From a virus, in IMG/VR virus record IMGVR_UViG_3300030103_000898, positions 1 to 33,489 of that record: DNA of 33,489 nt. One strand, 5' to 3'. Under the pieces are notes generated by a model. It was not told where the DNA came from. It made no database searches and worked only from the letters and a program-made list of their open reading frames with translations. A program made the position numbers and the translations under genes. Shown one piece after another: positions 5,037 through 9,461 of this stretch. Position 1 is the stretch's first letter; each line of letters begins with the position of its first letter.

Positions 5037-5065
5037 AAAGTACTGCATATATGCAGTTAGGTCAA
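5037..5065 (-). promoter_or_regulatory. Promoter with 16-bp perfect palindromic operator (site B)
   Basis: Reading leftwards there is a -35 TTGACC (5060-5065), a 17-base spacer and a weak -10 TACTTT (5037-5042). The spacer region is filled by the perfect palindrome ACTGCATATATGCAGT (5042-5057), identical to the one at 9419-9434. A protein bound there would block RNA polymerase. It would control the exonuclease, annealing and SSB-like genes. The palindrome also spans the last base of the upstream gene's stop codon. The palindrome is certain; operator function is inferred. Confidence 0.65.
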
Positions 5066-5683
5066 CAGCTTTCTCCTCTGTTGTTCGATTGCGCGAAGCA
5101 GTAGCTTGCGCTTGTGTAATCTCCAGTCAATGTGTTTGTAGAACTCAGCATATGCAGGCCAGAATGTAGCAGTTTTAGATACTTCTTTGATTGCATACAT
5201 TACAATATCTGCTGGGTACTCTGTGAGTTGCATAGCTATAGCATTCATACGAAATGTATAATCTTCAACCGACTCGCCTGCTGGCTTTACCACCAGCGCA
5301 GCCAGCAGAGCGAGTTGGTTGGTAATTTCATCTACAGATAGTGAAGCCATAGAAGCTCGTACAGCGCGTTCAGCCTTGTCACACTGCTCTAGGGTGTCTA
5401 GTTGTATTTGAAAGCCCTGTGTGGTGTATATAGCCTCAGTATCGGTGAATCTAGTTTTGATTTGCTCTACCACTGTTGAGTTGCTGATGGATTCCAGCGA
5501 AGAAACTAGGCGCTTGTCTGCTTCTGCTGGATTGTTTATTTCCAGCAATCGTGCCACCGCCGCTTGACGCATCTCTGTACTTAATGCTGTTTCTGCACCA
5601 AAGTCGGTATGCTTTTCTGATGTCTGCAAACGCATTGCCTTTTGATTGATGGTGGTCACAGAACCTACAGGCTTCATGTTCAT
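5057..5683 (-). CDS. Putative replisome organiser or helicase-loader-like protein
   Basis: The protein has 208 residues from ATG 5683, which follows AAAGGAGAAC. TTG at 5689 is closer to the RBS and is an alternative start. The N-terminal 60 residues are polar. The C-terminal half is all-helical with the pattern LTEYPADIVMYAIKEV followed by FWPAYAEFYKHIDWRL, which recalls phage loader or replisome proteins acting downstream of an initiator. It sits immediately after, and 233 bases inside, the initiator-like gene in another frame, like lambda O and P in order but with far more overlap. The loader role rests on context and a weak motif. Confidence 0.5.
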   Translation of the reverse strand: MNMKPVGSVTTINQKAMRLQTSEKHTDFGAETALSTEMRQAAVARLLEINNPAEADKRLVSSLESISNSTVVEQIKTRFTDTEAIYTTQGFQIQLDTLEQCDKAERAVRASMASLSVDEITNQLALLAALVVKPAGESVEDYTFRMNAIAMQLTEYPADIVMYAIKEVSKTATFWPAYAEFYKHIDWRLHKRKLLLRAIEQQRRKLLT

Positions 5684-6095
5684 GGTCAATGTTCTCCTTT
5701 AGTATTATATTTATTGAGTTGCGTAGATCTTCATCAGGATACCAGTTATCTGGAATCTGATTACGCTTCTTTTTAGATTGACTGGTTACTGATAGGTTAG
5801 TGTTGCACTCTGCACCAGTACTGTTGCACTCTGCACCAGTCGGGAAGATTGTGTATAATGTAGATCGTCTGCTGTTACCACGTTCTCTGCTTATCCAGCC
5901 TCGTTCTTCTAGCCAGTTGAGTTTGCGTGTAACTGTAGACTTGTTCATACATGCACGTGTAGCTAGTCGGTCAAGACTAGGCCAGCATTCATGTGTATAT
6001 TCATTGGCGTGATCAGCTAAAATTACCATCAACCATTTTGCATGGCAGTCTTGTATGTCAGCTTGTATCGCTTTCGCCATCAGTGTGAAGGCCAT
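5451..6095 (-). CDS. Replication initiator-like protein (lambda O / winged-helix type)
   Basis: The protein has 214 residues, with RBS AAAGGAGAAC five bases before ATG. The N-terminal winged helix (about 15-75) has the layout of phage and plasmid initiators: KWLMVILADHANEYTHECWPS, DRLATRACMNKSTVTRKLNW and LEERGWISRER. A linker is followed by DNWYPDEDL and the C-terminal module CRFCDHHQSKGNAFADIRKAYRLWCRN (about 142-168), the usual FxDHxxxKG...W.RN signature. The last 40 residues are low complexity. It should bind the phage origin and recruit a loader. Its 3' 233 bases overlap the next gene out of frame, and its 5' end overlaps the resolvase by 38 bases. Confidence 0.75.
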   Translation of the reverse strand: MAFTLMAKAIQADIQDCHAKWLMVILADHANEYTHECWPSLDRLATRACMNKSTVTRKLNWLEERGWISRERGNSRRSTLYTIFPTGAECNSTGAECNTNLSVTSQSKKKRNQIPDNWYPDEDLRNSINIILKENIDHEHEACRFCDHHQSKGNAFADIRKAYRLWCRNSIKYRDASSGGGTIAGNKQSSRSRQAPSFFAGIHQQLNSGRANQN

Positions 6096-6420
6096 TGTTG
6101 TTCTCCTTTAGTAATGGCGCAATCTTTGATTCAAACACATCGCCATCAAAAATTACAAGCGTTTTTGGCGCTCCTGTTTTGCGCTTATAAAACAAAACAT
6201 TTCGTACAACATTGAAAGGATTGGGAAAATTAGATTTGTCTCGGTACTTTACTTCAGTTACCAGTCTGTGTCCTCCGAGTTCCCAGATGATGTCTCCGCT
6301 ATACTCGCCTCCCAAGCTACCGCTGAGGGGCTGGCGTTTCGCTTGGAACCCCATTTCTTGTAACCAGTTGACGAACCAACGTTCGTGGTAATTTCCTTTG
6401 TTGCGGTTTTTGTTTGCCAT
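6058..6420 (-). CDS. Holliday-junction resolvase-like nuclease (Hjc type)
   Basis: The protein has 120 residues. The PD-(D/E)XK core is well preserved in Hjc order: KGNYHERWFVNWL with Glu13, AKRQPLSGS with Arg29 and Ser33-Gly34, SGDI with Asp43, and the E-x-K pair Glu56/Lys58 in VTEVKYRD. These bind the metals that cut four-way junctions. Length is that of single-domain archaeal-type resolvases. It would resolve recombination or replication intermediates before packaging, in line with the annealing and exonuclease genes downstream. The end overlaps the initiator gene out of frame. Confidence 0.75.
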   Translation of the reverse strand: MANKNRNKGNYHERWFVNWLQEMGFQAKRQPLSGSLGGEYSGDIIWELGGHRLVTEVKYRDKSNFPNPFNVVRNVLFYKRKTGAPKTLVIFDGDVFESKIAPLLKENNNGLHTDGESDTS

Positions 6421-6593
6421 GTTCCATCCGTGTAACAGTCAATACAAATTAGATAGTGAGTTACTTCTGGTTCTATTGTAGCTAGTGGCATTACAAAATA
6501 TTCTGTGAACACACCGCATGTATCACATGGGTATTCTCTACCGCCGCTGTTTATTTTTTTTCTTGTAGACTTTGATCTGTAAGCCAAGTGCAT
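6258..6593 (-). CDS. Putative zinc-ribbon protein, overlapping resolvase out of frame
   Basis: An ORF of 111 codons whose first 60 residues contain two CxxC pairs (Cys23/Cys26 and Cys50/Cys53) around a beta-rich segment (FTEYFVMPLATIEPEVTHYLIC), a convincing zinc ribbon. Only this frame covers 6421-6537. The remaining residues overlap the resolvase gene and look like polar filler. The start also overlaps the end of the regulator gene, and no strong RBS is visible for ATG 6593. The zinc ribbon argues that it is real; the true start and whether the whole overlap is translated are uncertain. Confidence 0.45.
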   Translation of the reverse strand: MHLAYRSKSTRKKINSGGREYPCDTCGVFTEYFVMPLATIEPEVTHYLICIDCYTDGTWQTKTATKEITTNVGSSTGYKKWGSKRNASPSAVAWEASIAETSSGNSEDTDW

Positions 6594-6795
6594 CTAACCA
6601 GCATGTAAACAAGAACCCACTAGGCACTCGTTTATACTGTTCCCATTTATGAATTAAAGATTTTGCACAACCAATCTTGTAAGCCAATGCTTCTTGTGAC
6701 ATGCCTTGTTGTTCACGATGCATGACAAGTTCATGTATCACAGTTTCGTAACTATCAGTTACTTCAGTCTGTGTTTTGAAGTGCTGAAAGTTCAC
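6538..6795 (-). CDS. Cro/CI-type helix-turn-helix regulator
   Basis: The end is fixed, the start is not. The conserved part is an HTH_3 domain: HELVMHREQQGMSQEALAYKIGCAKSLIHKWEQYKRVPSG, then a short helix and a basic tail (VYKKKNKQRR). I give GTG 6795 as the start, which overlaps the previous regulator by 32 bases (85 residues); ATG 6723 would still keep the HTH. No clear RBS is seen, so coupling to the upstream gene is likely. Together with the next-upstream HTH gene it forms a regulator pair beside operator-like palindromes, so it is a candidate for the protein that binds them. Confidence 0.55.
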   Translation of the reverse strand: MNFQHFKTQTEVTDSYETVIHELVMHREQQGMSQEALAYKIGCAKSLIHKWEQYKRVPSGFLFTCWLDALGLQIKVYKKKNKQRR

Positions 6796-9026: not shown

Positions 9027-9250
9027 AATGTTCTCCTTTTCATTTTGTCACCATCTAGATAATACAAGCCATAGAAGTTGTAGTTTTTTGACTTGTCTCT
9101 TGTGCAGACACGCACGAAATTATATTCCTTTCCGAATGCATCGGCTTGTCTGCGCAAATCTTTGCCCATTTGTCTTAACGAATGAGCAACAGAATATATT
9201 GTCATGCATTTGTTAGTTTGATCGGGCGTATGATAATAAAATTTTGGCAT
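9023..9250 (-). CDS. Small hypothetical protein
   Basis: A protein of 75 residues with AGGAG nine bases before ATG. It starts MPKFYYHTPDQTNKCMTIYSV, continues with a basic helix (SLRQMGKDLRRQADAFGKEYNF) and ends in a beta segment (FVRVCTRDKSKNYNFYGLYYLDGDK). It is compact alpha/beta with a net positive charge, so it could bind nucleic acid, but no family is recognised. Its end overlaps the DUF932 start by four bases, so the two are coupled. Confidence 0.5.
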   Translation of the reverse strand: MPKFYYHTPDQTNKCMTIYSVAHSLRQMGKDLRRQADAFGKEYNFVRVCTRDKSKNYNFYGLYYLDGDKMKRRTL

Positions 9251-9253
9251 AGC

Positions 9254-9406
9254 TTATCTCCTGTTCAGCCACACGCCACACCCAGCCAGCACCATGCCGA
9301 ATAGTATGAGTGCAATGTGCATGTAGAATGCGCTAGTTGTGTGCGGTTCAAGTGTAGTTGCAGATACCAATATAAAAATACCAAGACATATTAATGTGTT
9401 AGACAT
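9254..9406 (-). CDS. Short two-span membrane protein, first gene of early operon
   Basis: A protein of 50 residues with RBS AAGGAGAACGAA immediately before ATG 9406. Two hydrophobic segments (about 3-17, NTLICLGIFILVSAT, and 29-46, MHIALILFGMVLAGCGVW) are joined by a polar loop; it ends NRR. It is the first gene behind the operator-bearing promoter at 9418-9460, so it is probably made very early. Small early phage membrane proteins may serve superinfection exclusion, but no such activity can be shown here. Confidence 0.6.
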   Translation of the reverse strand: MSNTLICLGIFILVSATTLEPHTTSAFYMHIALILFGMVLAGCGVWLNRR

Positions 9407-9417
9407 TTCGTTCTCCT

Positions 9418-9461
9418 TACTGCATATATGCAGTATATATCATTAGGTTGCACACTGCAAC
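9418..9461 (-). promoter_or_regulatory. Early leftward promoter with palindromic operator (site A)
   Basis: A leftward -35 TTGCAG (9455-9460), 17-base spacer and -10 TATACT (9432-9437) make a good sigma70-type promoter. The 18-bp perfect palindrome TACTGCATATATGCAGTA (9418-9435) overlaps the -10 and the predicted start. A second inverted repeat GTTGCA-CAC-TGCAAC (9447-9461) covers the -35. The AAGGAG of the first gene begins inside the transcript only a few bases after the palindrome. This is probably the main repressible early promoter. Confidence 0.7.

Follow-up and report, generated by a model that had tools for sequence, protein, structure and literature searches.

Conserved palindromes at three early promoters suggest Cro-like control in an uncultured podovirus-like phage

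The present study concerns the viral record IMGVR_UViG_3300030103_000898 (the window: the whole record, 33489 bases, labeled G000 among the phage records compared) and a palindrome found on three leftward early promoters of this phage. We propose that the 64-residue helix-turn-helix (HTH) protein encoded in the same early block, termed HTH64, is most probably a Cro-like autorepressor of these three promoters, in a phage without sign of lysogeny. This proposal is carried by the sites themselves, by their placement on promoters and joint conservation with the HTH64 gene, and by the way in which residue 30 of HTH64 covaries with the operator arms. A first-pass annotation of the window had suggested that one HTH protein represses the first early operon, the recombination genes and itself; conservation and covariation support this suggestion, with repression as the probable consequence of binding. 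The elements concerned are as follows.

9419-9434 (strand not applicable): putative operator overlapping the -10 element of the first early promoter; exact 16-mer, layout recurring in relatives
9432-9437 (minus strand): -10 of the early promoter, TATACT, 17 bp from TTGCAG; from the sequence, same layout in relatives
9455-9460 (minus strand): -35 of the early promoter, TTGCAG; from the sequence and the layout in relatives
6969-6984 (strand not applicable): putative operator within the -35/-10 spacer of the HTH64-HTH85 promoter; from the sequence and relatives
6964-6993 (minus strand): HTH64-HTH85 promoter, TTGACA at 6988-6993 and -10 at about 6964-6970; 10 of 12 matches in a consensus scan
6764-6958 (minus strand): HTH64, 64-residue single-domain HTH protein, proposed repressor, recognition helix 30-37; AlphaFold2 and homologues
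6538-6795 (minus strand): HTH85, XRE-type HTH protein whose gene follows and overlaps that of HTH64, with an uncertain start codon; Pfam
5042-5057 (strand not applicable): putative operator filling the promoter spacer of the RecE-like operon; exact 16-mer, relatives
5037-5065 (minus strand): promoter of the RecE-like operon, TTGACC at 5060-5065, 17-bp spacer, TACTTT at 5037-5042; recurring layout
4173-5018 (minus strand): RecE/YqaJ-like exonuclease, encoded first in the recombination operon; phrog_434 7e-29 and YqaJ 3.1e-08, both obtained with the longer open reading frame 4173-5048

The start of the longer exonuclease frame falls inside the operator, and the ATG at 5018 behind AGGAGA is therefore the likely start of this gene.

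The identical 16-bp palindrome described by the annotation, ACTGCATATATGCAGT, was found at both 5042-5057 and 9419-9434, and at the latter site perfect symmetry extends to 18 bp (9418-9435). The 12-of-16 variant reported at 6969-6984 was likewise present as TATGCATTCATGCAGT, the core of which matches TGCATNNATGCA at 6971-6982. At up to three mismatches, ACTGCATATATGCAGT has 3 matches in the window compared with a mean of 0.33 in shuffled windows, and 0 of 100 shuffles had 3; the third match (18919) lies inside the major head gene and outside the operator set. The length and perfection of the palindromes, previously taken, along with their position on core promoter elements, as strong evidence for operators, are unremarkable alone because shuffled windows often hold such sites: perfect 16-bp palindromes of any sequence occur at 0.76 per shuffled window (at least 2 in 54 of 300 shuffles), and CTGC-N6-GCAG at 0.79 (at least 2 in 56 of 300). 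What stands is that the same palindrome occurs twice, on promoters, and is conserved. In other words, repetition and promoter placement made the palindrome worth following, and conservation elsewhere is, at the level of sequence comparison, the strong evidence. The sites are real, but the conserved unit is not the perfect 16-mer; rather, it is a 14-bp CTGC-N6-GCAG with a variable centre, and because the centre bases differ among the 14-mers at RecE promoters, the perfect centre in the window is incidental. Placement on promoters applies to all three sites, although the consensus scan lists only 6964-6993 and the hexamers at 5042 and 9419 are weaker; these two promoters are backed by comparison with relatives. 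The additional 12-bp palindrome GCATAATTATGC noted on the HTH promoter is present at 6962-6973, but it is imperfect in the nearest relatives, hence not conserved, and was not seen by eye in more distant HTH promoters.

The conservation of the operators was followed at each of the three promoters. For the HTH promoter, 73 distinct HTH64 cores were pooled from the loci of relatives, and in 71 of these the promoter could be read, with 75 or more bases of upstream sequence. TGC-N6-GCA was observed in the own promoter of 59 of these 71 cores and, with one arm base changed, in the other 12 (the 8 cores of the R30 clade described below, L067, L152, L134 and L153), against a background of 691 in 20000 random 80-bp locus pieces, true sites included. 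In the group of the window, the own operator is found between TTGACA and the -10, whereas in the L058/L072/L080 group it immediately precedes the start codon; the motif is thus kept despite its shifted position. At the RecE promoter, the layout TTGnnn-3-[14-mer]-TAnnnn recurs, with the operator filling the 17-bp spacer, and 53 of the 67 distinct cores having at least 2600 bases downstream show this layout 1.0-2.7 kb beyond HTH64, with complete symmetry of the arms. Among the layout 14-mers found anywhere in the loci, the six centre bases vary and all four arm pairs match in 17 of 18 types, bearing in mind that the patterns fixed the inner GC of the arms and, for the outer two places, admitted C/T and A/G only, such that only those two pairs could mismatch. 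The one asymmetric site of the 18, TTGCTCTGCCGCAG, is located some 6 kb upstream of HTH64 in L074 and was treated as chance.

The three targets named by the annotation, namely the first early operon, the HTH pair and the recombination operon, were found again in the same order across many relatives. In G002 (22464/25430/27364), G014 (7786/10371/12305), G018 (21220/23462/25408) and L156, a contig of an Opitutae bin, the early site is followed by the HTH site and then by the RecE site. In 17 of the 26 HTH64 lineages with enough flank, CTGC-N6-GCA lies 1.0-3.8 kb upstream and was read as the early operator; a further lineage, L010, is doubtful. Across 22 records (G000 and 21 relatives), CTGC-N6-GCAG was counted 47 times on one strand versus 2 for the reversed control; these records were chosen for the relatives they contain and include several closely related ones, and the 47 sites comprise places elsewhere in the genome (e.g. 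12482 in G017). The scores of the motif-weight scan, with a simple Markov shuffle and training sites partly from the scanned loci, are descriptive only. The annotation had regarded a lack of conservation in phages with the same HTH genes as fatal to the proposal; instead, the sites are conserved at the HTH and RecE promoters of relatives. Short palindromic putative operators are observed on early promoters, that of the HTH64 gene included, as in Cro systems. Pairs of operator-like sites 30 bp apart were also observed in L010 (8559/8589 and 10971/11001) and L006 (7031/7061), and these pairs may reflect cooperative binding. In a distant group, a different palindrome, TGACGTWACGTCA, occurs just upstream of the RecE promoter (L074 9950, L072 4659, L080 9950 and L064 2531), and in L067 (6996) it occurs just upstream of the early promoter instead.

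The identity of the reader is suggested by the covariation of residue 30 with the arms of the RecE operator. Among distinct cores, T was found with CTGC in 18/18, D with CTGC in 27/27, and R with TCGC/GCGA in 8/8; over the overlapping loci, this comparison comprised 56, 78 and 17 loci, respectively, representing 13, 16 and 4 distinct protein segments. The TCGC-N6-GCGA pattern is meaningful only at the RecE promoter, as matches also occur in other places (e.g. G001 18845 and G009 31979). The own operator of the R clade has one arm changed (CTGCATTAATGCGG versus CTGCACTAATGCAG in its sister), T30R is the only change in the recognition helix (30-37) special to this clade, and the arm change falls on the two outermost places of the operator. 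Residue 30 starts the recognition helix in the HTH64 model. The 434 Cro complex 3cro aligns with this model over 56 residues (HTH64 1..56 to -1..54), and when the alignment is read as ungapped, residues 30, 31 and 35 of HTH64 fall on residues 28, 29 and 33 of 434 Cro, which contact bases. In a model of the repressor of the lambdoid phage 933W, the recognition helix contacts, through its first residue, an outer operator base pair, numbered position 2 in that study (PMC3317979).

The other candidate reader in the same operon is HTH85 (6538-6795), which is an XRE-type HTH protein by Pfam (frame 6538-6897: HTH_31 8.9e-07, HTH_3 3e-06) and has homologues in most loci holding HTH64. However, the helix SL[IV]HKWE of HTH85 is almost invariant while the operators differ, and TESLIHKWE was found with both TCGC (17 loci) and CTGC (2 loci), so it does not track the arm change. 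In Pelagibacter phage EXVC031P Hodr (L091, about 15418), an HTH85-like domain is present in a longer open frame (E 1.5e-07) with no match to HTH64, and only two weak sites scoring at least 8.5 were observed, both outside the early region; this point is modest, as the domain has diverged there. It is thus unlikely that HTH85 reads the palindromes, and HTH64 is the likely reader, favoured over HTH85 by these comparisons.

Herein, we propose a circuit in which, once a cell is infected, host RNA polymerase would read the three leftward promoters, one each for the first early operon, the HTH64-HTH85 pair and the RecE-like recombination genes. HTH64 would accumulate and probably dimerise on the 14-bp CTGC-N6-GCAG. 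As the operators lie in the spacer (two promoters) or over the -10 (the third), bound HTH64 would block RNA polymerase and thereby close early transcription, including its own, as the protein accumulates. Such a circuit would represent a delayed negative feedback similar to the lytic role of Cro, and no CI opponent was found in the searches described below. Small phage HTH proteins of the same fold class can also activate, e.g. lambda cII, and HTH64 might bind the same sites to activate or tune transcription; we consider this role quite improbable, however, because a protein bound inside the spacer or on the -10 of a promoter with an ordinary 17-bp spacer would exclude RNA polymerase. Promoter palindromes of the form CTG...CAG also resemble the enterobacterial SOS box (CTG-N10-CAG), raising the question of whether a host regulator such as a LexA-type SOS repressor reads them. 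This explanation is very hard to sustain: the spacing in the three window sites is CTG-N8-CAG or a variant, which differs from the enterobacterial LexA box, the arms change along with a residue of a phage protein, and the sites stand beside the HTH64 gene.

The AlphaFold2 model of HTH64 (pLDDT 93.5) shows helices at 4-14, 19-25, 30-37 and 44-63, and its fold matches include 434 Cro, P22 c2 and C proteins (VIA Z 5-6 over 54-57 residues), consistent with a small single-domain lambda-repressor-like HTH fold; the resemblance is one of fold only. The window protein matched 0 families of Pfam and PHROG at E <=0.1, and by sequence it is not an XRE member. A profile search of solved-structure sequences gave one match (E 0.78), taken as chance, and tblastn against the phage records gave no match for either the window protein or a distant homologue. 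Among viral contigs, 419 stretches of the HTH64 family were confirmed, 80 of which were kept as relatives. A scan of species genomes (one genome per species, 84,980 species) with a single peptide pattern, by which relatives may be missed, matched 50 stretches with 1 true relative, the Opitutae-bin contig L156.

Several results weigh against HTH64 as a Cro-like repressor of all three promoters. The strict symmetric RecE layout is missed by 14 of the 67 cores, 4 of which have TTGCATATATGCAG followed by TA, symmetric in 3 of 4 arm pairs, and 10 of which are without such a symmetric site. Within the 26 lineages, no clear operator of the early operon was found in L011, L058, L065, L074, L078, L080, L084 and L153. 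Other residues of HTH64, including 38-40, changed along with T30R, and because the R residue represents one clade and one event, the covariation is strong but not conclusive. HTH85, encoded in the same operon, hence co-occurs with the operators as well. The best Foldseek E-value for HTH64 is 0.14, and its VIA Z-scores of 5-7 are in a range open to unrelated folds, where values below 8 may reflect a common arrangement; with no Pfam or PHROG family matched, the assignment of HTH64 rests on fold and layout.

The window carries a podovirus-like gene set by PHROG search, including terminase, endolysin, major head protein, internal virion proteins, a head-tail adaptor (phrog_332, 2.6e-93) and a tail protein (phrog_376, 1e-114), and its leftward early block encodes the RecE-like exonuclease, an O-like initiator, a Holliday-junction-resolvase-like protein, the HTH proteins and a DUF932 protein. 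The nearest named phage by the adaptor protein is Hodr (63.7% over 91% of the query), and a nucleotide search with the first 25000 bases of the window against 50,697 phage records gave no match. Integrase (PF00589), serine recombinase (PF00239) and S24 peptidase (PF00717) were each found in 0 of the 22 phage records, which may be fragments. The S24 search of these records also revealed no opposing repressor of the CI type, although a CI protein lacking the S24 domain would escape such a search. Integrase matches of the Opitutae bin lie on assembly contigs 22, 49 and 70, one of which may or may not be that of L156. The failure to find lysogeny genes, together with the rarity of HTH64 in species genomes compared with viral contigs, argues against frequent lysogeny, as far as genome content can indicate. 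As neither an integrase nor an S24 repressor was found in the 22 records, the circuit resembles a Cro-type shut-off of early genes in the absence of lysogeny.

The first early promoter carries a second palindrome, which relates to the O-like gene. The remaining features of the early block are as follows.

9447-9461 (strand not applicable): iteron-like palindrome GTTGCACACTGCAAC, the second at the early promoter, over its -35; comparison with relatives
5451-6095 (minus strand): O-like replication initiation protein; phrog_1032 7.2e-27, phrog_391 1e-15
5798-5839 (strand not applicable): two 21-bp iteron-like repeats inside the O-like gene; repeat comparison
9254-9406 (minus strand): 50-residue protein, first gene of the early operon; position after the early operator

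The 50-residue protein has no PHROG match (E <=0.01); in L016, L027, L096, L097 and L129, the early operator is likewise followed by small proteins of 50-60 residues that look alike by eye. A terminator-like hairpin (9580-9609; 13 pairs, 8 GC) shares the strand of the early promoter and lies upstream of it, and a winged-HTH protein (6990-7202; HTH_39, 2.2e-13) is encoded directly upstream of the HTH64 promoter.

The palindrome GTTGCACACTGCAAC resembles the two 21-bp repeats located centrally within the O-like gene. Repeats at 21-bp spacing were found in the window and in 4 of 5 relatives compared; of 122 loci, 93 have them inside the O-like frame. Among relatives, the repeat is GTTGCA-like, GTCGCA-type or GTCTCA-type. 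When the iteron base was defined as the third arm base by majority of four arms, a helix residue T of the O-like protein accompanied base T (65 loci) and A/C accompanied base C (28 loci) in 93/93 called loci, which include overlapping ones and represent 22 distinct combinations; iterons were not called in 29 further loci. Because the helix residue follows the iteron base, the O-like protein very probably reads the iterons, and the repeats constitute a candidate replication origin within an initiator gene, of the lambda O type. HTH64 and the O-like protein are thus alike in showing covariation of a residue with a base of their own sites across uncultured relatives.

With regard to the -35 palindrome, pairing in at least 5 of 6 arm positions persists in 15 of the 22 distinct promoter stretches, ATTGCA/TGCAAT with both sides changed among them; these stretches were found by a pattern demanding the TTGCA left arm and a downstream operator. 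Compared with the iterons over 26 rows (4 without clear iterons), a palindrome with at least 5/6 pairs was present in 9/11 GTTGCA-like, 4/5 GTCGCA-type and 0/6 GTCTC-type rows. It is conceivable, though we judge it somewhat less probable than the opposite, that the first early promoter is read by both HTH64 (at the -10/+1 operator) and the O-like initiator (at the -35 palindrome). In that case, the onset of replication would contribute to shutting off early transcription, a type of coupling familiar from plasmid Rep proteins, here in a phage without sign of lysogeny. Against a role of the initiator, the early palindrome stays GTTGCA in L096 and L131 despite GTCGCA-type iterons, the C of such iterons being followed in one arm of L097 only, and L124 has iterons but no early palindrome. 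This comparison is weakened because the left arm of the palindrome doubles as the -35 and is therefore constrained. A second HTH64 site was rejected as an explanation of the palindrome, since iterons with GTCGCA arms occur in lineages keeping D30 and CTGC operators; the iteron base following the O-like helix also opposes it.

Taken together, these comparisons support the palindrome finding as real and suggest operator control of Cro type, a known kind, here in a new variant arrangement. A literature search of titles and abstract beginnings, with most subscription journals outside its coverage, revealed no paper on this regulon. The circuit is testable and concerns the early genes of an uncultured podovirus-like phage group that recurs widely in viral metagenomes; its parts are three operators, one proposed 64-residue reader and a natural specificity change at residue 30 that predicts operator preference. 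If true, Cro-type control without lysogeny would show the use of such a repressor in the absence of any decision, and the possible coupling of the initiator to the early promoter would supply a further means of timing.

Among known systems, 434 Cro and the lambdoid Cro/CI proteins share with HTH64 a single small HTH domain (3cro Z 5.2, root-mean-square deviation 2.6; 2cro Z 5.1) and a palindromic operator of 14 bp, in which 6 bp separate two 4-bp arms, on early promoters including their own; the 434 operator is ACAA-N6-TTGT. Unlike lambdoid Cro, the sites proposed here are dispersed over 4.4 kb, one per operon, with different arms and no match to the sequence family, and unlike the lambdoid immunity region, no integrase or S24-type CI repressor was found in the 22 records. 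Aca1 and Aca10 are also among the fold matches of HTH64 (Z 5.2 each). Aca autorepressors are small HTH proteins that read a palindrome at the promoter of their own operon, whereas here three separate early operons carry the putative operator. The restriction-modification controller C.Esp1396I, of the same fold class, is among the top fold matches as well; C proteins autoregulate through operators at their own promoters and both activate and repress through paired sites, in contrast to the mostly single main site per promoter and the phage early-gene regulon suggested here. Finally, as in lambda, where the origin lies in gene O, the O-like initiator gene of the window holds several iteron-like direct repeats with inner symmetry in its middle. 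Unlike at the lambda origin, a matching palindrome here also occurs on the -35 of an early promoter, an arrangement that, to our knowledge, has no counterpart in lambda.

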